Positions 30-40,379 of a stretch of DNA of 40,521 nucleotides are shown here, one piece after another. The position numbers were made by a program, and so were the translations under genes. This stretch comes from a virus. Each line of letters starts with the position of its first letter. Within the stretch, counting starts at the first letter, position 1. Location of the stretch: the IMG/VR virus record IMGVR_UViG_3300045922_000337, positions 1-40,521 of that record, one strand, 5' to 3'. The notes under the pieces were generated by a model. The model searched no databases, was not told the origin of the DNA, and was given only the letters and a program-made list of their open reading frames with translations.

Positions 30-58
30 CCCCACCCCGCTGTTATCTTCGGGGCATG
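30..58 (+). promoter_or_regulatory. Leaderless phage promoter for the portal gene
   Basis: A C-rich box (CCCCACC, 30-36) is followed by TTATCTT (43-49), then CGGGGC, then the ATG at 56. The -10 hexamer TATCTT ends 6 nt before the ATG, so transcription should begin at or next to the start codon. There is no Shine-Dalgarno sequence. CCCCG (35-39) and CGGGG (50-54) are complementary and flank the -10. The same arrangement recurs at 4126, 11303, 24128 and 33341. Confidence 0.65.
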
Positions 59-1559: not shown

Positions 1560-4052
1560 ATGAAAGTGACTGATGTTGCTCTGTCTATGATCGAAGCCCA
1601 AATCCAAGCCACACGAATGGGCCGTCCTAATGCTGCTCGTGGAATGCTCAGGGATTTAGCCTACGCCCAGAAAATCCACGTCCAGAACCGCAAGAATTTG
1701 GCAACCGAACCCACTCCAACCCCTGTTCCGTCTGGAAAGACTCCCGACGAAGCCTTCAAGTTGCTTTATGTCGCTTACACCGATGCGATCGAACGTGCCC
1801 AAAACGGTGACAAGCAAGCCGAAGAGGAAGCCGACTACCTCTATGATTTGATGGATGAGTATGGCTATCTCGATGCCAAAGATGTCAAAACTCTTTCATC
1901 GTTGCCGGACAATGTGCAATTCATCACCCTGATGGATTCAGGGGCGTGGACTCGCTACGAAGGGAAACGAGGCGGAAAAGGTTGGAAGAATTCCAGCACG
2001 GGCCGAATTATCTACACCGATTCGGAGTATGCTCCCGGTCATCGCCGACGCCAACAAGAAGCCAGTCACTCGAAGGCCAGCGAGCTCTCCGAAAAAATCT
2101 GGGAGGCCCGTAACAGTGGGCAAGAAATCTCGCACGAACACCTTCGAGAGTTGGCCGATCACCTACCGGCACTCTCGAAGGAAAAGCTCAAATTTGTTCG
2201 TGATACCCTGATGACCTCGTTTGGGAACGCTCGCCGACGTGATGAGATGCTCAAGGCCCTGCAATCCCACATTGCGCGGCGGATCAGTGGGGAACACCAA
2301 GAGCCCAAAGAAGAAGAACCCACACCCAAACCCAAGAAAGCCAAAACGAAATCGGATGTCAAGCTCCGCGAGAATGGCACTCCCCACCAACCCGACAAGA
2401 ACGATGTCTACACGGTCAACCCGTCGCAGATTCATGTTGATCCGAAACGCTTCCAGTACAAGGTATCAGGTATTGGCAAGGATGGGGTGACTGATGAGCT
2501 GAAAGGGGTCAAGACGTGGAACCCCGAGCTAGGTGGTGTGCTGTTAGTGTGGCGAGACCCAGCGGACGGGAAGGATTATGTCATCAATGGTCACCATAGG
2601 CACGAACTCGCCAGTCGGTTGGGGGCGGGTCAGATCAATGTGCGATACATCGATGCCGCTACTGCTGAAGAAGCCCGTGCCCGAGGGGCACTGGCCAATA
2701 TCGCAGAAGGACGCGGAACTGCAACGGACGCCGCAAAATACTTACGGGATACGGGGGCAGACATCGAACACCTGCAAAGGGCAGGTGTGTCCCTGTCGGG
2801 GCGTGTCGCTGCCGATGCAATGCAGTTACGCGACCTCTCGGATCAGGCCTTTAATCGCATGGTCCAAGGGGCAATCCCTGAGGAAACAGCCGTGGCCGTC
2901 GCTCGGCATTTAAAAGATCACGGCCTGCAGGACAAATTGTTTAGCCATCTCGAAAAACGAGCAGAAGAAGGTAAAGACTGGTCGCGTCAACAAATTGAGA
3001 TGGCCGCCAAAAAAATGGCGAATGCTGGCAAGGTCACCACAACAGAAAATACTCTCTGGGGCGACATCGAAGACGAAAAATCCACCTTCGACCAAGAAGT
3101 AGAACTCGAGGCCCATGTCGCAAGGGAATTGGCCAAACGAGCCAATGACTATCAAGCTATCAGTAATCAGAGCCGTGCGGAACGTGTGGCAGATGCGGGG
3201 AATCAGATTGCTGTAGAAGAAAATAAACGCCGACTACAGAAAGCCCAGCAAGATGCCGAAAACTTCCATCGGGAGATCCACTTGGTTGGCGAACATAGTC
3301 GGATCACAAAACAGTTTGCCGCCGAACTGGCTGCGGCTAAAACAAAGAAGGAGAAAGAGAATGTCAAACAAAGATACCTCGCCGCAATCGACGCACTTCA
3401 CAACTCAGACCAAACCCAAGCCATTGACACCGGAACAACTGCGGCGAGTGGAGCAGCAACATCGGGAGATGATGCGGCTGCCGGAAGTGGACCCAATCGA
3501 TCTGACGTCAGATCAGAACTCAGATCGGAAACCGGCACAGAATCAGAAAGAAAAGTAGCGTTCGATGAAGAATTGCCGACGACAAAACCAAAGACGACAA
3601 AACCAAAGACGACCCCCGAACCAGAGCGGTATGCCTCACCGCTATCAAATGCACATTCGCGAGAAGAAAAACTCAAGGTATTGAGAGATTACATCGCCCA
3701 AGAAGAAGGAATAACGAGCGGCCCGCGAACCCTCACACAAGAATCGTTCACCAGACCTGATATCCCGCTGCCCATTTCGGAGGGCGAATTATCGGATTTG
3801 GGGCAGCGGATCAAGGATAAAATCGCTTCCTCTTCTTTCGGTACCCCAACGACCCAACTGTACGAGCAGTTCGGTCAGCCGCTGGGGTTGAGCAAACACG
3901 ATTTCATGCGTGCATTATGGAAACTGAAACAACAAGGATCATTACGCTTGTCACAATGGTCGGGGATGCCGGACGATATCCCAGACCCAGACCTCGTCAT
4001 ACCCCATAGCAGCAAGCTCATGGCTTATGTTCACGCAGACCTAGGTGAATGA
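1560..4052 (+). CDS. Large head-region protein with ParB-like domain
   Basis: An 830-residue multidomain protein directly after the portal, where Mu- and SPP1-like phages carry a head morphogenesis (gpF/gp7-like) gene. Residues about 285-390 look like a ParB/Srx-fold domain: NPSQIHVDP, then INGHHRHEL (342-350) and an alanine-rich helix. ParB-fold phage proteins bind DNA or have nuclease/CTPase-type activity, but I cannot tell whether this one is catalytic. Around 129-154 is a glycine- and tryptophan-rich segment (RGGKGWKNSSTGR). Lysine/proline linkers lie near 247-265 and 670-690 (a short KTTKP repeat). A predicted helical domain ends the protein. The last codons and stop lie inside the 14-bp tandem repeat at 4041. 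The portal context suggests a head protein; the role is uncertain. Confidence 0.6.
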   Translation: MKVTDVALSMIEAQIQATRMGRPNAARGMLRDLAYAQKIHVQNRKNLATEPTPTPVPSGKTPDEAFKLLYVAYTDAIERAQNGDKQAEEEADYLYDLMDEYGYLDAKDVKTLSSLPDNVQFITLMDSGAWTRYEGKRGGKGWKNSSTGRIIYTDSEYAPGHRRRQQEASHSKASELSEKIWEARNSGQEISHEHLRELADHLPALSKEKLKFVRDTLMTSFGNARRRDEMLKALQSHIARRISGEHQEPKEEEPTPKPKKAKTKSDVKLRENGTPHQPDKNDVYTVNPSQIHVDPKRFQYKVSGIGKDGVTDELKGVKTWNPELGGVLLVWRDPADGKDYVINGHHRHELASRLGAGQINVRYIDAATAEEARARGALANIAEGRGTATDAAKYLRDTGADIEHLQRAGVSLSGRVAADAMQLRDLSDQAFNRMVQGAIPEETAVAVARHLKDHGLQDKLFSHLEKRAEEGKDWSRQQIEMAAKKMANAGKVTTTENTLWGDIEDEKSTFDQEVELEAHVARELAKRANDYQAISNQSRAERVADAGNQIAVEENKRRLQKAQQDAENFHREIHLVGEHSRITKQFAAELAAAKTKKEKENVKQRYLAAIDALHNSDQTQAIDTGTTAASGAATSGDDAAAGSGPNRSDVRSELRSETGTESERKVAFDEELPTTKPKTTKPKTTPEPERYASPLSNAHSREEKLKVLRDYIAQEEGITSGPRTLTQESFTRPDIPLPISEGELSDLGQRIKDKIASSSFGTPTTQLYEQFGQPLGLSKHDFMRALWKLKQQGSLRLSQWSGMPDDIPDPDLVIPHSSKLMAYVHADLGE

Positions 4053-4092
4053 GACTAGGTGAATGAGACTAGGTGAATGAGACTAGGTGAAT
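4041..4092 (+). repeat. 14-bp tandem repeat encoding chained mini-ORFs
   Basis: The unit CTAGGTGAATGAGA is repeated 3.7 times (4041-4054, 4055-4068, 4069-4082, 4083-4092). It holds the stop of the preceding gene. Each unit contains ATGA, and from each ATG the reading is five codons (MRLGE) to a TGA that overlaps the next ATG. It lies 35-100 bp before the next promoter and gene. Confidence 0.85.
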
Positions 4093-4125
4093 GTCTGACC
4101 TGATGCATCAGTCAAAAACCTAATG

Positions 4126-4155
4126 CCCACCCAGACCCGTTAATCTCATGGCATG
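4126..4155 (+). promoter_or_regulatory. Leaderless phage promoter
   Basis: CCCACCC (4126-4132) precedes TTAATCT (4140-4146). CATGGC separates the -10 from the ATG at 4153, the same 6-nt distance as at 56. An ATG at 4148 is too close to the -10 to be the main start. Confidence 0.6.
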
Positions 4156-10481: not shown

Positions 10482-10530
10482 TACACGAATTCCCCCGTGC
10501 ATTTCCATTATACGTCATGGCGTGTAAAAA

Positions 10531-11295
10531 ATGAACTGTTTTGGTTGTGGCGCTCGAAATTTCGATGCCGGAAATCACTATAAAGAACTCGGCTTATGTC
10601 TCTGGTGTGAACAAGACTCCATTATTCTTGCACGCCGAATTGATGATATTCAATTCGAGAAAGAAAATCCTCCTTTTACGTGTGCTCATTGTGGCGAGTT
10701 AAGTCATTTTCGTGGTCGTCAATTCTCTTTCTTTGGCATGTGTGATACCTGTCGTGATGATGTTGGCATTGTGTGCAACGAACTGCGATTGCGAAGATTG
10801 AAATGCCGACCGGCTCAACCAACTCATTACCCACCGGGAAGTGCTGGCAAAATCCTTGTGATGCAAGAACGCTACGAGCAAGGTCAGGAACTCTTTGCCG
10901 ATGGCGATGCCGATATGTCTGGAGCGGTTGCAAGCACAGATCCCGAACTTCCGGAATCTCAACTCTATGTGGTCACTCCACGAGAAGATGACTCGTGGGC
11001 ATTGGATGAGGATTTGAACGCGGCGAGAGTGGGCATCGAGCGGGACAAGAATCGCCGCTATCGAGCAAGGCCGTATTGGTGTGGCCGAAAGCATAACCTC
11101 GGGAGCTTCTTGACAGAGCAAGAGGCAGCGACGGCTATCGTAGGTTTTTGGTTAAATCACTTCGGATTGTTTTGGCGACACCGTCACTCGGCTCCTTTGT
11201 GGGTCGGGGATCGGATGGTCGGCGGGGCTCGCAAAGAAAGACGTGTTCCACGTAAACGAAAACCCAATCCCGATCAGCAATACATCTGGAATTAA
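10531..11295 (+). CDS. Zinc-finger protein with AP2-like DNA-binding C-terminus
   Basis: A 254-residue protein. The N-terminal 85 residues carry repeated CxxC pairs (C3/C6, C23/C26, C50/C53, C71/C74), i.e. two zinc knuckles. The middle is acidic. Residues about 175-215 (RRYRARPYW, GRKHNLGSFLTEQEAATA) match the pattern of the AP2 DNA-binding domain found in phage HNH endonucleases and in integrases. The C-terminus is very basic. No HNH motif is present, so I infer a regulator or a homing-nuclease relative without its catalytic domain. It stands alone between a terminator and a promoter. Its ATG overlaps a tiny upstream ORF as ATGA. Confidence 0.6.
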   Translation: MNCFGCGARNFDAGNHYKELGLCLWCEQDSIILARRIDDIQFEKENPPFTCAHCGELSHFRGRQFSFFGMCDTCRDDVGIVCNELRLRRLKCRPAQPTHYPPGSAGKILVMQERYEQGQELFADGDADMSGAVASTDPELPESQLYVVTPREDDSWALDEDLNAARVGIERDKNRRYRARPYWCGRKHNLGSFLTEQEAATAIVGFWLNHFGLFWRHRHSAPLWVGDRMVGGARKERRVPRKRKPNPDQQYIWN

Positions 11296-11300
11296 CGATG

Positions 11301-11329
11301 CCCTCGAAGTCTGTTAATTTCGGGGCATG
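11301..11329 (+). promoter_or_regulatory. Leaderless phage promoter for secreted-protein block
   Basis: CCCTCGAA (11301-11308) precedes TTAATTT (11314-11320), CGGGGC and the ATG at 11327; the 6-nt gap is identical to that at 56 and 33376. GCCCTCGAA and TTCGGGGC are near-complementary and flank the -10. TTAACG (11292-11297) lies 17 bp before the hexamer and could act as a -35. Confidence 0.65.
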
Positions 11330-18324: not shown

Positions 18325-18347
18325 GGGTGTGAACTATCTCACACAGC

Positions 18348-21335: not shown

Positions 21336-21382
21336 AACAACTCCTTAAAGGAATCACACACTCACAAACACACATAAAAGCT

Positions 21383-21464
21383 GACCTGTCGAGGACTCGA
21401 ACCTCGTGAAGCCCTGAGAGTCACCACCTCGGAGAAAACAGAATAACTCTCACTCGCTCAGGTC
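21383..21464 (-). ncRNA. tRNA-like element B
   Basis: On the minus strand, GACCTG (from 21464) pairs with CAGGTC (ending 21383), and the T arm CGAGG-TTCGAGT-CCTCG (21390-21406) is perfect, with consensus T-loop bases. The element is 82 nt, the size of a class II tRNA, with A as discriminator and no encoded CCA. The interior does not give a standard D arm or a 7-nt anticodon loop; GAGAG/TTCTC with a 10-nt loop is the best arm. It shares GGTGGTGA and ACTCGCT words with element D. It lies between two early genes. Confidence 0.5.
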
Positions 21465-21920: not shown

Positions 21921-22007
21921 TTGAGGGTTGCTCTCTACCCCAAAGTCTCTTCGTTTCGTCGAAGTTCCACGTCGCATCATGCGATTCGTGCACTGTCTCC
22001 TATAGCT

Positions 22008-22077
22008 GCATCAAGCCGGAATCGAACCGACGTGAGAGTCACTCGCTGTTCTGACACTCACCACCTTGGATTGATGC
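22008..22077 (-). ncRNA. tRNA-like element D
   Basis: On the minus strand, a perfect 7-bp acceptor-like stem (GCATCAA from 22077, TTGATGC ending 22008) encloses a T arm, GTCGG-TTCGATT-CCGGC, that directly abuts the 3' acceptor strand. Total 70 nt plus an A discriminator. The interior forms one long hairpin (GTGAG-T-GTCA with TGAC-T-CTCAC, 10-nt loop) and has no D arm, resembling armless mitochondrial tRNAs or a viral tRNA mimic. Confidence 0.5.
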
Positions 22078-23778: not shown

Positions 23779-23806
23779 TTGAAAAAATTGTCTTTGTGTG
23801 TATAAT
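23779..23806 (+). promoter_or_regulatory. Plus-strand sigma70-type promoter
   Basis: TTGAAA (23779-23784), a 16-bp spacer and a perfect TATAAT (23801-23806) lie 50 bp before the RHH/AT-hook gene at 23857. The divergent pair is set in AT-rich DNA, a likely autoregulatory site. Confidence 0.7.
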
Positions 23807-24120: not shown

Positions 24121-24127
24121 CTTCCTG

Positions 24128-24157
24128 CCCCACCCAACCCATTATCTTCGGTGAATG
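24128..24157 (+). promoter_or_regulatory. Leaderless phage promoter
   Basis: CCCCACCC (24128-24135) precedes TTATCTT (24142-24148). CGGTGA then separates the -10 from the ATG at 24155, keeping the 6-nt spacing although the bases differ from CGGGGC. No ribosome site. Confidence 0.65.
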
Positions 24158-26008
24158 CCAAGCATTCTTCCGGGTAACGGCGTTATCTGCACCTACAACG
24201 GGTTTACCTTCGACCCTGCGTGGACAGAGACGCTTACGTGCGATATTTCCCCCAAACTCGACCGCGCCGGTCGAACGGTCAGCCACAACCAGTATGCGAT
24301 CCGCCTTCGCACAGTTATTACTTCCTCCCACCCGACAACAACCGATGCGCTCGTTCAAGATGCGATCCAAAGACTTACCACACCGGGCCAAGACTTCTTC
24401 TTCCAAGATCGCGGATTCGGCACGCTCTCTGTGAATGTGGCAGGGACTCGAAGGAAGGATGTGAAGTGGGGGCCAAAACCAAAGCTCGTGAGCCTCAAGC
24501 ACATTGGGGATAAATACGCCCAAGAGCTCATCTGGCAGGTTGAGGTTGCAACGGTTGATTGCAATGCAGCACGATACCAGAACACTCCCATTGAGTTCAA
24601 TTACGAGGTCATCTACAGTCACGATGAGAATCGGAACACTACCCGTAAAGTGAACGGCACTTTAACAATTGCCCAAACCCGCCAAGCCGGTGGACGGCAA
24701 GTCTTCACGAGTGCTGATGAGTGGCGAGAGAAGATCACCCCTGCCCTGATTGAGGGGTTCAGGAGGGGCCCCGAGTCTTGGAATCTATCCGAGGATAGAG
24801 CGACGATTAAGTTTGATGTGACTGATACCCAGATGGGGCGGTTCTACCCACCTCCGGGGGTCATTTCAGTTAAGGCATCGCGGAGTTGGGATAATAAAGA
24901 GAACATGAACTTTATTGCTTGGCATGGCCGAATTAATGCCGAGTACACTCTCGCAAGGGATGCCGACAATCGGATTGCGTTCCAGCATTTTCGATCTATG
25001 TGTGAGACCTACCTCAAAACAGCCGAAGATCAATTGATTGCTGCGGACATGGTTGATGTTGAGGGTAAGCAAAAAGAGAAAAACAAGGTAATAAAAGATA
25101 TTGCAAGAGTTGCTGGCTTTATCTGGAATCCCGGACTGGCTATCCTTGCTGGGATACAGAAGGATTTTGGTAAAAAACCTGCACAACTACCGATTTCCTT
25201 TTCCGCAAGCGAACCGGAGATTTACGGGCCAAACGTCATTGCTCGTTTTTCGCTTACCGTCCTTCAAGTTGGCTTTCTCCCCGTTTTCCTAACCGCAGGA
25301 CTTTGGTCACCTGTCCCTCAATCGAACTGGAAGCTCTGGGCTCAGAGTATGGCCTTTGGTCCTCGTGCCAGTGGAGGTCTCGCATTCAACCCTCTCGACG
25401 ATGCGATTATTGATGCGTGCCGAGGGGAACCTTCGAGTCTCAAGTTCCAATCTTCAAAACCCATCCCCATTACCATCCTTGGGGGGTCGAACCCTGTTGG
25501 CACAATAAGTCCTGAATCCTCATGGATGGACTACGAAAATAGCATCCGTTACGAGCAAGGCGGCGATGTGGTGTTCCACAATCCCCTCTCCGAGGAGAAG
25601 TTCGCCCAGAACCCTGTTCTTCGTGGCATGGCAGGCCCCCTGAATATCGGTGGCGGAAGGTTCGGCAAAGTCTCCGAGGAGGTTTCCCTCTCGTCCTACG
25701 GGAATGCCCTCAAAGCCAAATCGACAATCTATCGTCGCACAGCTCCGACTCGAAGAGTGGTTATGACGGGCCGAGCCGTTCGAGCCGGTTGGCCTGCCTA
25801 TCCTCCTGAGCTGGTCAGTGTCGGAGGAATCCCTGCGACCTGTATCGGTGGGCCTATTGAGACGAAGGTGGTAGGACATGTGGGTGTGCCGATCTATGCG
25901 TGCCGATGGCGACTCACTTATATCTTGCCCGAAACACCACGGAGTATTGAAGCTCCGAGCGACCCTAATTTCGGGATGAGTAACAACGGTTTATTAGGTG
26001 GATCATAA
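24155..26008 (+). CDS. Large structural (tail/baseplate) protein
   Basis: A 617-residue protein I do not recognise by family. It has many beta-type segments (RLRTVITSSHPTTTD; WQVEVATVDC), no signal peptide and one hydrophobic stretch near 320-340 (VAGFIWNPGLAILAGI). It is driven by its own leaderless promoter and is followed 2 bp later by the tail chaperones. In most siphophages the genes around the chaperones are tail genes, so a tail or baseplate function is inferred. Its separation from the other tail genes (39144 onward and 4153) by the replication half of the genome is unusual. Confidence 0.5.
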   Translation: MPSILPGNGVICTYNGFTFDPAWTETLTCDISPKLDRAGRTVSHNQYAIRLRTVITSSHPTTTDALVQDAIQRLTTPGQDFFFQDRGFGTLSVNVAGTRRKDVKWGPKPKLVSLKHIGDKYAQELIWQVEVATVDCNAARYQNTPIEFNYEVIYSHDENRNTTRKVNGTLTIAQTRQAGGRQVFTSADEWREKITPALIEGFRRGPESWNLSEDRATIKFDVTDTQMGRFYPPPGVISVKASRSWDNKENMNFIAWHGRINAEYTLARDADNRIAFQHFRSMCETYLKTAEDQLIAADMVDVEGKQKEKNKVIKDIARVAGFIWNPGLAILAGIQKDFGKKPAQLPISFSASEPEIYGPNVIARFSLTVLQVGFLPVFLTAGLWSPVPQSNWKLWAQSMAFGPRASGGLAFNPLDDAIIDACRGEPSSLKFQSSKPIPITILGGSNPVGTISPESSWMDYENSIRYEQGGDVVFHNPLSEEKFAQNPVLRGMAGPLNIGGGRFGKVSEEVSLSSYGNALKAKSTIYRRTAPTRRVVMTGRAVRAGWPAYPPELVSVGGIPATCIGGPIETKVVGHVGVPIYACRWRLTYILPETPRSIEAPSDPNFGMSNNGLLGGS

Positions 26009-26572: not shown

Positions 26573-27664
26573 TCACACCCCATCAAACACCCCCAATCCC
26601 ATTCGCCCATCCCCTAACCGAGGTGCTTCCCCACGTGCTCCGGGCCAATCCGCCATCTTCGCTGAGTTGTCCCAAATCTCTTTGAATATCTCTTTGCCAT
26701 CTTTCTTGTTGCGTCCCGTAATCGCATCGGCAATCCGTTCGGGTAACTCTTCAAACATTCTCTCGACGATCTTATCCCATCGACCCGTAACGAAGTCGCT
26801 CATATTGCTGAGTGCTGCTCCAATGAGCTCACCCGTCACTTGCAGGACTTCTAGCACCCCTGTCTTCTCCACCAACGTCAACAGGGTATTGAGAATCCGA
26901 GCCACTCCATCCTTGATGGGTGTAAAGGCATCCTGAATACCCGTCTCGAATCTCGACTTGGTATCGATCAGATTCCCGACATTCTCGCCAGTTCGATTCG
27001 CTTCCCGAAGGTCAGCCATGAGTTTCCGTTGATCGGCCTGAGCAGAAGCAAGAGCCAGATTCGCATCAAGGTTTTTGAGCTCCTTCCCCCGAGCTACCAA
27101 CGCTTCCGTCGCATCATCGAGCGCACCCACTACTTTCTTCACACCCGGCGGCAGAGGTGCAAAAGAATCGACTAACCCTCGCCAGTCGTTCTTGGCGAGC
27201 ATCCCTACACCCTGAGCTGCCTTCTCACTCCAATTCCCGAGTTGATCGAATTTGTCTTTCCAATCGCCACTTCCCCCCGAACCTGATCCACCACTCCCAC
27301 TCCCACCTCCATTTCCGCCTCCACCACCATTCCCACCCGATCCTCCACCCCCCGGAAGGTTCGGCGGTTGGGGTGGACTGTAAGTCGTCCACGAGCTTGG
27401 CCCACCACCCCCGGGATTTGGGCCACCTGATCCTCCACCCCCCGGAAGGTTCGGCCCCAGATCGGCACTCCTCAGTAGGTTCGTAAACTGATTCCCATTT
27501 GAGCCGAGAAGCTTTTGGAAATACGAACTGGCATTCCCCGCTCCCTTCATGGCTTGCAGGGAACTACTAAGACCTGCGCCCGATGTGGACGCTGCGGCAG
27601 TTCCTGTGGAACCGGCAAGAGTGGGTGCAACACGGGCAACGGTGGAAAGAATAACTGGGATCAT
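26573..27664 (-). CDS. Tape-measure-like protein on the opposite strand
   Basis: A 363-residue protein. An Ala/Ser/Gly-rich N-terminus is followed by a Gly/Pro/Ser linker (about 78-145, PGGGGSGG repeats). A helical domain contains LALASAQADQRKLMADL, then a segment typical of tape-measure C-termini (NVGNLIDTKSRFETGIQD, then ILNTLLTLVEKTGVLEVLQ). If it is a tape measure, about 360 residues predict a short tail. Tape measures normally follow the chaperones on the same strand; here it converges with them, 2 bp between stops. It could be a minor tail or ejection protein instead. Confidence 0.5.
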   Translation of the reverse strand: MIPVILSTVARVAPTLAGSTGTAAASTSGAGLSSSLQAMKGAGNASSYFQKLLGSNGNQFTNLLRSADLGPNLPGGGGSGGPNPGGGGPSSWTTYSPPQPPNLPGGGGSGGNGGGGGNGGGSGSGGSGSGGSGDWKDKFDQLGNWSEKAAQGVGMLAKNDWRGLVDSFAPLPPGVKKVVGALDDATEALVARGKELKNLDANLALASAQADQRKLMADLREANRTGENVGNLIDTKSRFETGIQDAFTPIKDGVARILNTLLTLVEKTGVLEVLQVTGELIGAALSNMSDFVTGRWDKIVERMFEELPERIADAITGRNKKDGKEIFKEIWDNSAKMADWPGARGEAPRLGDGRMGLGVFDGV

Positions 27665-27673
27665 GGAATAAGT

Positions 27674-27911
27674 CTAACCAGCAAGAGGGGATAGCTTTTC
27701 TTGTTTCATCTCGTCGATCCTAATCAAATCCGGAATAAAATTATTGTTCAGGAAGTCGATCTCATAGTCCGCATCGAACACAATCTCTCTAAGACCTGCA
27801 ATCTGTCGTCCACATCGGACAATGGCCTTCGAGAGTTCTATCCATGCCTTTGTAGCATTTGGATAGCCAAAATGCCAGAAAATCTTCGTGTTCGTAGTAC
27901 GCCAACGACAT
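27674..27911 (-). pseudogene. Small gene probably broken by a frameshift
   Basis: An ATG at 27911 opens a 40-codon frame (MSLAYYEHEDFLAFWLSK...) ending at 27789. The neighbouring frame continues convincingly to a TAG at 27674 (AWIELSKAIVRCGRQIAG, then FDADYEIDFLNNNFIPDLIR) but has no good start of its own. One +1 shift around 27850-27870 would join them into a product of about 78 residues. A sequencing error, a real pseudogene or programmed slippage could explain this. It lies directly upstream of the tape-measure-like gene. Confidence 0.45.
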
Positions 27912-28512: not shown

Positions 28513-29206
28513 CCGGAGCAAAACCGGAGTAGCCGGAGTTGGCCCGGAGTTGCTACTCCGGACGAAATTCTCTCATAATGTTACGTTTTCGTCGAGAAAA
28601 CAAGAGTGTAATTATTAAGGTGGAGCATGTCCGGAGCAATCGGAGCGCTTTACGGGGGGAGGGGGTGGGAGCCTCCCCCAGAGGGGGTAACCGGCCATAT
28701 TATGAGGGTCTGGGATATCTCGGGAATCTGGGTAAACTTTAACGATTGCTAGAAAGAGAGACACTATCTAATATATATATTACTTTATATTATTATATAT
28801 ATTAGTATATATTATTATATTATTATATTATATATAGAATATATACTAGACAGCGAGCGCAGAAGCGAAAGCCCAGTTGTGTTTCCCGAATCCTTCTCGG
28901 AGCGGAGTATTTCCTGACATCTTTGGGTGAGGAACCGGTCTCGGAGTTGCGACAAAAGCACCTCAAGCCGTAGGCAAGGCTGCTCAGGTTGCTGCTAAGA
29001 TGGGGTAGCTAGGTAAGATTATCACCCCACTTACCCCCTCCCCATGGCCTCCCACCCCCTCCCCCCGTAAAGCGCTCCGATTGCTCCGGTTTTGGATTCT
29101 CTCATAATCTTGTTCGACAAAATACGGTGAAAAAGCGTATTTATGAGCGTTTTTCATCCGGAGTAGCAACTCCGGGCCAACTCCGGCTACTCCGGTTTTG
29201 CTCCGG
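28513..29206. repeat. Nested inverted repeats around AT-rich core, candidate origin
   Basis: Two perfect inverted repeats are nested on one centre near 28860: an outer pair of 50 bp (28513-28562 and 29157-29206) and an inner pair of 41 bp (28631-28671 and 29049-29089). The outer arm holds four direct CCGGAG words at 9-11 bp spacing plus one inverted CTCCGG, like iterons. The core (28769-28850) is almost pure A/T. ATTCTCTCATAAT occurs twice in the same orientation (28567 and 29096). No convincing gene lies inside; short ORFs on both strands share a peptide only because they read the inner arms. Gene direction changes across the element, as expected for an origin. Confidence 0.65.
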
Positions 29207-29269
29207 CTGTTGATGTTTGAGGCTTGCCCAGAAAGGTTTGGTAACTTGATTTTGCCCCGAGGGAATGTC

Positions 29270-31705: not shown

Positions 31706-31791
31706 AAGGGAAAACCGTCAGTGTGAATCCTAGAATCGCTGCGAGGATAATGAAAAGGGTCATCCCCAATCATACACCCTATTTCAGGCTT

Positions 31792-31833
31792 CCCCTTCCC
31801 GTTTGTTAGATTCGGTCTCAAGGGAGATCGAAA
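31792..31833 (+). promoter_or_regulatory. Phage promoter with ribosome-site leader
   Basis: CCCCTTCCC (31792-31800) precedes TTAGATTCGG (31806-31815). This variant has an untranslated leader with AAGGGAGA before the ATG at 31834, unlike the leaderless members of the family. Confidence 0.5.
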
Positions 31834-33340: not shown

Positions 33341-33361
33341 CCCCGTTGCCCGACGGGGTTT
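33341..33361 (+). terminator. Rho-independent terminator
   Basis: CCCCGT (33341-33346) and ACGGGG (33353-33358) form a 6-bp stem with a 6-nt loop, then TTT. It is preceded by AAAT and overlaps the C-rich box of the promoter for the gene at 33376, so termination and re-initiation are packed into 40 bp. Confidence 0.7.
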
Positions 33362-33378
33362 GCTAATTTCGGGGCATG
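33341..33378 (+). promoter_or_regulatory. Leaderless phage promoter for head genes
   Basis: CTAATTT (33363-33369) followed by CGGGGC and the ATG at 33376 is the third exact copy of the -10/CGGGGC/ATG arrangement. Here the C-rich element is the terminator stem just upstream. Confidence 0.6.
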
Positions 33379-34818: not shown

Positions 34819-34835
34819 CGCATAAAACCCTTCGC

Positions 34836-34873
34836 CCCACTGAGTTTGTTATCAACAGGTAAGGAGATAAAGA
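34836..34873 (+). promoter_or_regulatory. Phage promoter with ribosome-site leader
   Basis: CCCCAC (34835-34840) then GTTATCAAC (34848-34856) resembles the family at the same spacing. AAGGAGA (34861-34867) then gives a Shine-Dalgarno leader for the ATG at 34874. Confidence 0.5.
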
Positions 34874-35590: not shown

Positions 35591-35609
35591 TCGAAGGTTA
35601 AGCAAAAGG

Positions 35610-35666
35610 AAAGGCTAGGCTCGCTACCGAAAAGGGGTTTTACTTCGACCCCCTGCCTTTTCTTTT
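35610..35666 (+). terminator. Terminator between decoration and capsid genes
   Basis: An inner stem GGGGT/ACCCC (35634-35638 with 35648-35652) and an outer AAAGGC/GCCTTT (35610-35615 with 35655-35660) lead into TTTTCTTTT. It probably sets expression levels of the capsid transcript relative to upstream genes. Confidence 0.65.
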
Positions 35667-35718
35667 AACGAAGTATTGCTGGTGAAGTAACAGCGACATC
35701 CCGCTTGGGGTTTCTCAA

Positions 35719-38466: not shown

Positions 38467-38867
38467 CCGAAGTGCATTATTCTGTACCATCTGTATCAAG
38501 CGAAACAGGTGTAAAATCGAAGCCGTTGGGCTTATCAGGTGGGGCAACTCGGGAAGAGTTGCTTGATATTCTGACGGCGGATATGTCCGGTGGGCGGTAT
38601 GCGATTGCTTGCGGAAAGCCGTGGTTGACTCATACCGAAGCTGAAGCGGGTGTAGCCCGTCCCGTGAGTGGCGAAGCGTTCTGTGTGACTTGTCCTAAGT
38701 GCCAACAGGATATCCGTTGGAAAACGGCTATGCACACTTGGGTAATGGGTGTTGAGAACCCCATGAATCTACCTCCTAACATGAAACGAGCTTATGTCCA
38801 CTGGCTTACCAATTTCAGTGATTTCAAGCCCGAACCTAACCCAGAAGACGCTCTTCAAGCCACATGA
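38463..38867 (+). CDS. Small protein with zinc knuckle
   Basis: A 134-residue protein; ATG overlaps the preceding stop (ATGA). FCVTCPKCQQDIRW is a CxxC zinc knuckle, followed by aromatic helices (KTAMHTWVMGVENPMNLPPN). No family is recognised. It is coupled at its end to the next gene (ATGA), in the connector-tail operon. Confidence 0.5.
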   Translation: MTEVHYSVPSVSSETGVKSKPLGLSGGATREELLDILTADMSGGRYAIACGKPWLTHTEAEAGVARPVSGEAFCVTCPKCQQDIRWKTAMHTWVMGVENPMNLPPNMKRAYVHWLTNFSDFKPEPNPEDALQAT

Positions 38868-39283
38868 TCCTTCCTGAATTCCGACCAACCGAACTTGATG
38901 ATCGACGGGAGATATTCCGGTTGCTGGAATTGCTTTCTCCGCAAGCCCGAAGAGTCTGGTTAGAGTGGTGTTGTGAGTTTGCTAGTCGAGGGCATCCCCC
39001 TGTTTTTGTAACCCGTTTTGGAGGCACGGCTAACGAGGCTTATCTCGATGCCATGACTATCATCGGGCAAGGGGAATTGACACTCGAAGTTGCAGGCGGA
39101 ATGGCAGTCGAACTCGTGAAAGCCTTCGAGAAAGGGGAAAAACATGGCATTGGGCACATTCGCAGCCGGGGCTTACTCGGGAACCTACACCCCTCCATCG
39201 GGATCGGTACTTCCTCTGGGCATCACCCAATCGGGTTACACGCTGTCATGGAAAAACCACCAACGAGCGATTGCAGGGAGTGA
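38864..39283 (+). CDS. Small protein overlapping the tail tube gene
   Basis: A 139-residue frame whose first 93 codons look real (YLDAMTIIGQGELTLEVAGG, then AVELVKAFEKGE). The last 46 codons overlap the next gene out of frame and look like a shadow of it. Either the C-terminus is overprinted or a nearby frameshift hides the true stop. No family is recognised; in the tail operon it could be a tube chaperone or terminator. Confidence 0.5.
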   Translation: MILPEFRPTELDDRREIFRLLELLSPQARRVWLEWCCEFASRGHPPVFVTRFGGTANEAYLDAMTIIGQGELTLEVAGGMAVELVKAFEKGEKHGIGHIRSRGLLGNLHPSIGIGTSSGHHPIGLHAVMEKPPTSDCRE

Positions 39284-39662
39284 TGTCTACGGAGACTCCA
39301 CCGTAGACAAGGTAGATCGAGGACTCGATGTCTTTCTGTCTGCGGTCTTCTGGGAACGCAAAGCGGGGCCCATGGCTATCGTCTCCCCCTTCAATCAAAT
39401 GGCAGCCAACGGTGCTGTGAATATCGATATGGGGATCCGTGGGAAGCTTGCCACAGAAACGGCAGGCCAAGTGGTTCTCACGGTCACGGCAGGAACCCCC
39501 AGTGCGACAAACGGGCCTGCAACTTTGACTTTGCCGCTGGTGCGATTGAGTGACGGGCTAACGAGCTTCGTGTTTGACTCGGCACATCAAACGATCCCGT
39601 TCGATGGACAGGTTTTCCCATACGCTGCGAGCTCAAATACTCGCTTCGGCGTAGGGACGTAA
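39144..39662 (+). CDS. Putative major tail tube protein
   Basis: A 172-residue beta-rich protein with AAAGGGG before the ATG. Strands GVYSGTYTPPSGSV-like at the start and VVLTVTAGTPSATNGPATLT, ending with a beta hairpin (VFPYAASSNTRFG), suit a tail tube monomer of the gpV/Hcp-fold type. Size and place downstream of connectors fit. It is followed by an inverted repeat. No strict family match is claimed. Confidence 0.5.
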   Translation: MALGTFAAGAYSGTYTPPSGSVLPLGITQSGYTLSWKNHQRAIAGSDVYGDSTVDKVDRGLDVFLSAVFWERKAGPMAIVSPFNQMAANGAVNIDMGIRGKLATETAGQVVLTVTAGTPSATNGPATLTLPLVRLSDGLTSFVFDSAHQTIPFDGQVFPYAASSNTRFGVGT

Positions 39663-40350: not shown

Positions 40351-40379
40351 CCCCACCCCGCTGTTATCTTCGGGGCATG
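40351..40379 (+). promoter_or_regulatory. Second copy of portal promoter (redundant end)
   Basis: Identical to the promoter at 30-58, present again because of the terminal redundancy. The -10 is TATCTT at 40365-40370 and the ATG is at 40377. Confidence 0.6.

Follow-up and report, generated by a model that had tools for sequence, protein, structure and literature searches.

The first gene of the uncultured phage record IMGVR_UViG_3300045922_000337 is preceded, close to the left end, by a C-rich element, a -10-like hexamer and six nucleotides that lead directly into the ATG at 56. This arrangement raises the question of whether the phage has a whole family of promoters that place the start of transcription on the start codon itself. 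The window, that is, the complete stretch of DNA analysed here (positions 1 to 40,521), probably represents an entire phage genome. The first 203 bases recur, with one mismatch, as a direct repeat at its right end, and the motif copy at 40364 is therefore the one at 43 counted a second time. The window encodes a Mu-type portal, the large and small terminase subunits and a capsid-E-like major head protein, as well as collar fibre, DUF3987, YqaJ and AAA_24 proteins; the match to a tail sheath was weak.

The first 20 kb of the window, searched against a phage collection, revealed no similar DNA. Two IMG/VR contigs, G001 (3300044941_000120, a 25.5-kb fragment) and G002 (3300036768_000459, 41.6 kb), are syntenic relatives, with an identity to the window of about 25–47% across most of the shared virion proteins. 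No additional close family members came from queries with three of the proteins: terminase, major capsid protein and the candidate activator described below. The scan of a wider viral set with the strict promoter pattern returned 31 stretches, roughly the number expected by chance, and contigs with at least two sites occurred only within the family of the window, G001 and G002. Distant relatives of the terminase showed no convincing class with the six-nucleotide spacing.

Twelve gene starts in the three genomes share the pattern TG[AC]CC-N11-13-(nAnnnT)-N6-ATG, a small set of about 11 independent sites (G001 2131 and G002 16856 are near-identical DNA) from which the spacing was itself partly learned. 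The offset of TG[AC]CC from the ATG or GTG of gene starts gave a single peak at -29 in the three genomes, with nine boxes at -29, two at -28 and one at -30 against a background of 0.63 per offset, and all 12 box-bearing starts are ATG. When all spacings were tabulated, boxes with TANNNT-N6-ATG occurred two, six and one times at N11, N12 and N13, respectively, and nearly all other cells were zero. The fixed distance between the -10 element and the start codon, claimed in the preliminary description, was confirmed: in the window, [CT]TANNNT precedes a possible start ATG by exactly 6 nt in six cases and by each of the other distances from 0 to 20 in 0–3, and the -10 at N6 from ATG also peaks in G002. 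Leaderless transcripts from sigma-70-type promoters would call for a -10 hexamer that ends 6–7 nt ahead of the start codon, in agreement with this peak.

The motif is likewise far more frequent than in shuffled sequence, the comparison that had been proposed for the family. TGCCC-N9-12-[CT]TANNNT occurs seven times in the window against a shuffle mean of 1.3, and none of the 60 shuffles reached seven. Matches to TTATCTTCGGGGCATG with at most three mismatches also number seven (counted with the copy at 40364), where 0.35 are expected. The exact form TGMCC-N12-TANNNT-N6-ATG is present three times against an expectation of 0.01; sites 56 and 11327 have a spacer of 11 bp and hence fall outside this count.

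All five sites named in the preliminary description are real and present as described, on the plus strand. However, its "C-rich box" is better defined as TG[AC]CC at -29 to -25, the longer C runs being peculiar to the window phage. The promoter of the portal gene 56 (28–58) consists of the box TGCCC at 28–32, the -10 TATCTT at 44–49, CGGGGC at 50–55 and the ATG at 56–58, and the portal orthologue of G002 (12463) keeps the box with N12 spacing and N6. The counterparts of genes 56 and 1560 form one open frame in both G001 and G002. The promoter of gene 4153 (4124–4155; box 4124–4128, -10 TAATCT at 4141–4146, then CATGGC and ATG) has kept its architecture at the orthologues G001 2131 and G002 16856. 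Gene 11327 (promoter 11299–11329; box 11299–11303, -10 TAATTT at 11315–11320, CGGGGC, ATG) has its orthologue at G002 19751, which also belongs to the 12-site class. The promoter of gene 33376, a probable capsid protease/scaffold, covers 33347–33378 (box 33347–33351, -10 TAATTT at 33364–33369, CGGGGC, ATG), and the orthologues G001 15561 and G002 2978 keep the box and the N12/N6 spacing with weaker -10s. The scan of related phages thus found the architecture at orthologous starts in both relatives, at about 30–47% protein identity, although three sites there have poor -10s (AAATAT, CAAAAT and AAAAAT). At gene 24155 (24126–24157; box 24126–24130, -10 TATCTT at 24143–24148, CGGTGA, ATG) the box was not conserved in the G001 and G002 orthologues.

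All 12 sites have A(-11), T(-7) and C(-26); C(-25) occurs in 11, and C(-1) precedes A(+1) in 11 of 12. Within the -10, sigma-70 is most selective at A(-11) and T(-7), and a pyrimidine-purine step is preferred for transcription initiation. As judged from the sequence, the invariant A(-11) and T(-7) together with C(-1) match what is expected when a sigma-70 -10 element is combined with a CA initiator placed on the ATG. The -10 elements of the class often have G or TG directly before them. With a threshold of -5 kcal/mol or better, a Shine-Dalgarno sequence was detected at none of the 12 class sites vs. 23 of the 32 other window genes, which upholds the earlier claim that the named starts lack a ribosome site. 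Moreover, the intergenic gaps at 11327, 24155 and 33376 are only 31–37 bp long, so that the box and the -10 barely fit. Leaderless initiation is therefore well supported by the N6 spacing, the CA initiator on the ATG, the missing Shine-Dalgarno sequences and the conservation at orthologues: transcription would begin at the A of the ATG, and the resulting leaderless mRNAs would be translated by ribosomes binding the 5'-terminal AUG.

The class also includes promoters of messages with leaders, for which a weight matrix trained on most class sites was used; as the matrix also yields many weak, chance-level matches, the claim is limited to members that score highly and lie at gene starts. A strong addition, overlooked in the preliminary description, lies at 29225–29247 on the plus strand (box TGCCC at 29225–29229, -10 TAACTT at 29242), upstream of the terminase genes, and drives a message led by a Shine-Dalgarno sequence. 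Its counterpart in G002, 39734, stands upstream of the terminase of that phage, and both sites were outside the training set. The two leadered copies reported earlier at 31806 and 34848 hold, each with four of five box bases and 12-bp spacing: 31790–31812 (plus strand; box TTCCC, -10 TAGATT at 31807) feeds gene 31834, and 34833–34855 (plus strand; box CGCCC, -10 TATCAA at 34850) feeds gene 34874, both with Shine-Dalgarno leaders and both found by the matrix. Since the same box and -10 drive leadered messages (the terminase operon, 31834 and 34874), what defines the class is transcription, and whether a message is leaderless depends on the position of the start codon. TTATACG at 10508, suggested as another copy, lacks T(-7) and has a poor box, and it was rejected. 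A possible leaderless member, also missed at first, precedes the minus-strand gene starting at 27664 (27662–27693), with TATCC at -29 to -25 (three of five box bases), the -10 TAGACT, N6 and ATG.

Two further elements were noted in this part of the window. Positions 28513–29206, upstream of the terminase operon, contain nested inverted repeats of considerable length (94% over 66 nt, 100% over 41 nt) with a very AT-rich centre, possibly a replication origin. Immediately before the major capsid gene, positions 35608–35674 match the Rfam int-alpA RNA with 45 bits vs. a gathering cut-off of 35.8.

The box differs between the phages in a concerted manner. The six strongest boxes of the window are TGCCC, whereas the class boxes in G001 and G002 are TGACC (p = 0.0006; six and seven sites), and the searched patterns permitted both letters in every genome. 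To judge from these sequences, such a difference is the behaviour expected of the site of a trans-acting factor. A relative-type promoter that appears to be dead is present in the window at 4096–4118 (plus strand; alignment and matrix), where the box TGACC (4096–4100) is followed by CAAAAA in the place of the -10 TAAGTT of G001 and G002, and the window's own TGCCC promoter lies 28 bp downstream. Blocks of the gene at 1560–4052 are 98–99% identical in DNA to G001 and, in the 3' part, also to G002 (L005 10515–12566, L006 12183–12904). In the blocks from 2397 to 4065, upstream of 4153, the identity is likewise 98–99%, and beyond 4065 the similarity goes on across the TGACC box of the relatives and its spacer. 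Among the neighbouring proteins, identity to the relatives is no more than about 30–45%, and the near-identity of the DNA blocks despite this suggests that a gene segment whose end lies in the 4153 promoter region was recently transferred between phages. It looks as if, at this one locus, a foreign TGACC promoter came with the transfer and was then not kept. Positions 4060–4095, between gene 1560–4052 and the 4153 promoter, are made up of tandem copies of a sequence of roughly 15 bp (GACTAGGTGAATGA), of which the relatives carry fewer.

We consider that these sites form one class of promoters for virion (late) genes with leaderless starts, the box being bound by a phage activator acting together with sigma-70 RNA polymerase, and we assign this reading a probability of about 0.7. 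The TG[AC]CC box would stand in for the -35 element. In the middle promoters of T4, the MotA box takes the place of the -35 at a distance of 12 ± 1 bp from the -10, with TGn at about half of the sites (PMC2988021). The promoters described here resemble them in having a phage box about 12 bp from a sigma-70 -10 (spacers of 11, 12 and 13 bp only) without a -35, TGn at some sites, an A-rich stretch directly upstream of the box and a box that starts with TG. It is this likeness that favours a sigma-70 polymerase with a phage activator, which by analogy with MotA may be phage-encoded and act on the box. However, the MotA box is TGCTTtA rather than TG[AC]CC, and in the window family the start codon lies at the predicted +1, virion genes are driven and relatives of MotA/AsiA were not recognised; PHROGs and Pfam scans, which covered part of the small ORFs, reported no such family among the proteins tested.

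A candidate for the activator is a protein common to the window and G002, encoded at 10531–11295 (plus strand) and at G002 24384–25106, respectively; no counterpart was found in the 25-kb fragment G001. It has zinc-finger-like CxxC motifs and a possible AP2-like DNA-binding domain, and the evidence for it is weak. The structure model is of low confidence (mean pLDDT 40), its top fold matches being AP2/ERF domains (E 0.2–0.7, probabilities mostly 0.84–0.99), and the excised C-terminal stretch matches phrog_99, an HNH endonuclease family, weakly (5e-4). We know of no phage transcription activator of the zinc-finger/AP2 type, and on the basis of the model the protein is proposed as an activator candidate only. 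An inverted repeat of about 17 bp flanks the start of the G002 24384 gene (L012 around 4384) and extends into the coding sequence.

The preliminary description had left the choice between a dedicated sigma factor and an activator, of which the activator fits better. A phage sigma factor reading the box with region 4 and the -10 with region 2 gains some weight from G002, where a 240-aa sigma-70-family protein with regions 2 and 4 above the Pfam cut-offs (38776–39498; L012 18776–19498) is encoded next to the terminase promoter. However, neither domain could be detected in the window, even with E values up to 1 allowed, nor in the G001 fragment; a tblastn search likewise gave no counterpart. Sigma -35 elements begin about 22–23 bp before the -10, whereas the box begins just 17 bp before it, and its 12-bp distance is too close for an ordinary region 4 contact. 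We regard this explanation as unlikely. An inverted repeat in which the box pairs with the GGGGC preceding the ATG, acting either as a dyad operator or as a start-codon RNA hairpin, would account for the GCCC...GGGC arms at 56, 11327 and 33376, for TGACCT...AGGTCA at G002 19751 and for the long inverted repeat at G002 24384. Yet the predicted folds vary among the sites, and comparable pairing is absent at 24155, 4153, G002 16856 and G002 746, which makes this reading extremely improbable.

The sites might also be ordinary promoters of a leaderless-rich host, whose sigma-70 would read the (extended) -10 alone, the box being a host element or incidental. TANNNT near start codons is a common leaderless signature in several bacterial phyla (PMC5397173), several of the -10s here are preceded by TG or G, and a G-rich stretch follows the -10s of the window. 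An incidental element, however, would not be expected to keep a fixed distance and to change in concert between phages, and Shine-Dalgarno leaders are found at the majority of this phage's other genes. The nearest terminases in cellular genomes, about 45% identical to that of the window, belong to Chloroflexota prophages (L066–L070), and the TANNNT-N6-type signal was missing from the sampled DNA, presumably Herpetosiphon-like, which may not be that of the host. Taken together, a host origin of the whole arrangement is quite improbable. The assignment of the phage to a Chloroflexota host on account of these terminases was rejected: no other window protein was matched in the prophage regions with the terminase, and the sampled genomes lack such promoters. 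Bacteroidota-type -33/-7 promoters were rejected as well, as their spacing does not fit and the presence of TTGAAA-N16-TATAAT at 23779 would speak against them.

The late-gene signature put forward in the preliminary description stands as far as gene content is concerned (portal, probable capsid protease, terminase operon), but the contrast with TTGACA-type early promoters is at chance level, seven such sites being found in the supposed early region vs. 6.8 expected, and it rests on a few good-looking sites.

Phage transcripts without leaders are already known from the Thermus phage phiYS40, whose middle and late transcripts are leaderless (PMC3594737). That phage shares with the window a temporal class of leaderless messages, but both phage and host are different, and PMC3594737 mentions no activator box at -29. 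The Thermus phage P23-45 has extended -10 middle/late promoters, at which gp39 displaces sigma region 4 without binding DNA (PMC7403470). These promoters are similar in being independent of the -35 contact and used following the early genes; they differ in that an upstream box is not described in PMC7403470 and gp39 is not a DNA-binding protein. Leaderless promoters were predicted in Cluster O mycobacteriophages (PMC4351075), where the predicted +1 is also the first base of the start codon, but they are SigA-like, few in number and not a box-defined class of virion genes. No description of a -29 box combined with leaderless virion genes was found in the open-access literature.

A broader reading, which we put forward tentatively and consider doubtful, is that of a regulon of virion-gene promoters in which box, -10 and start codon lie within 32 bp and the box co-evolved with its activator, perhaps of the zinc-finger/AP2 type, so that phages exchanging DNA keep the distinct codes TGCCC and TGACC and the foreign promoter at 4096–4118 was lost and bypassed. 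If the proposed class is true, an uncultured phage group has a readable promoter code, and a 32-bp pattern would point to true gene starts, virion operons and the presence of a late regulator. An activator box tied to leaderless translation would raise the question of how host ribosomes favour leaderless virion messages, and the concerted TGCCC/TGACC change would provide a naturally occurring case in which to test how an activator and its sites co-evolve.

Several tRNA-like stretches (T-loop GGTTCGATTCC and similar) were observed on the minus strand of the window near 18340, at 21380–21440 and at 22006–22077; they were not called by ARAGORN, and one of them gave a sub-threshold Rfam match. In G002, ARAGORN identified a tRNA with the anticodon TTA (L012 15468–15546), a possible ochre suppressor.
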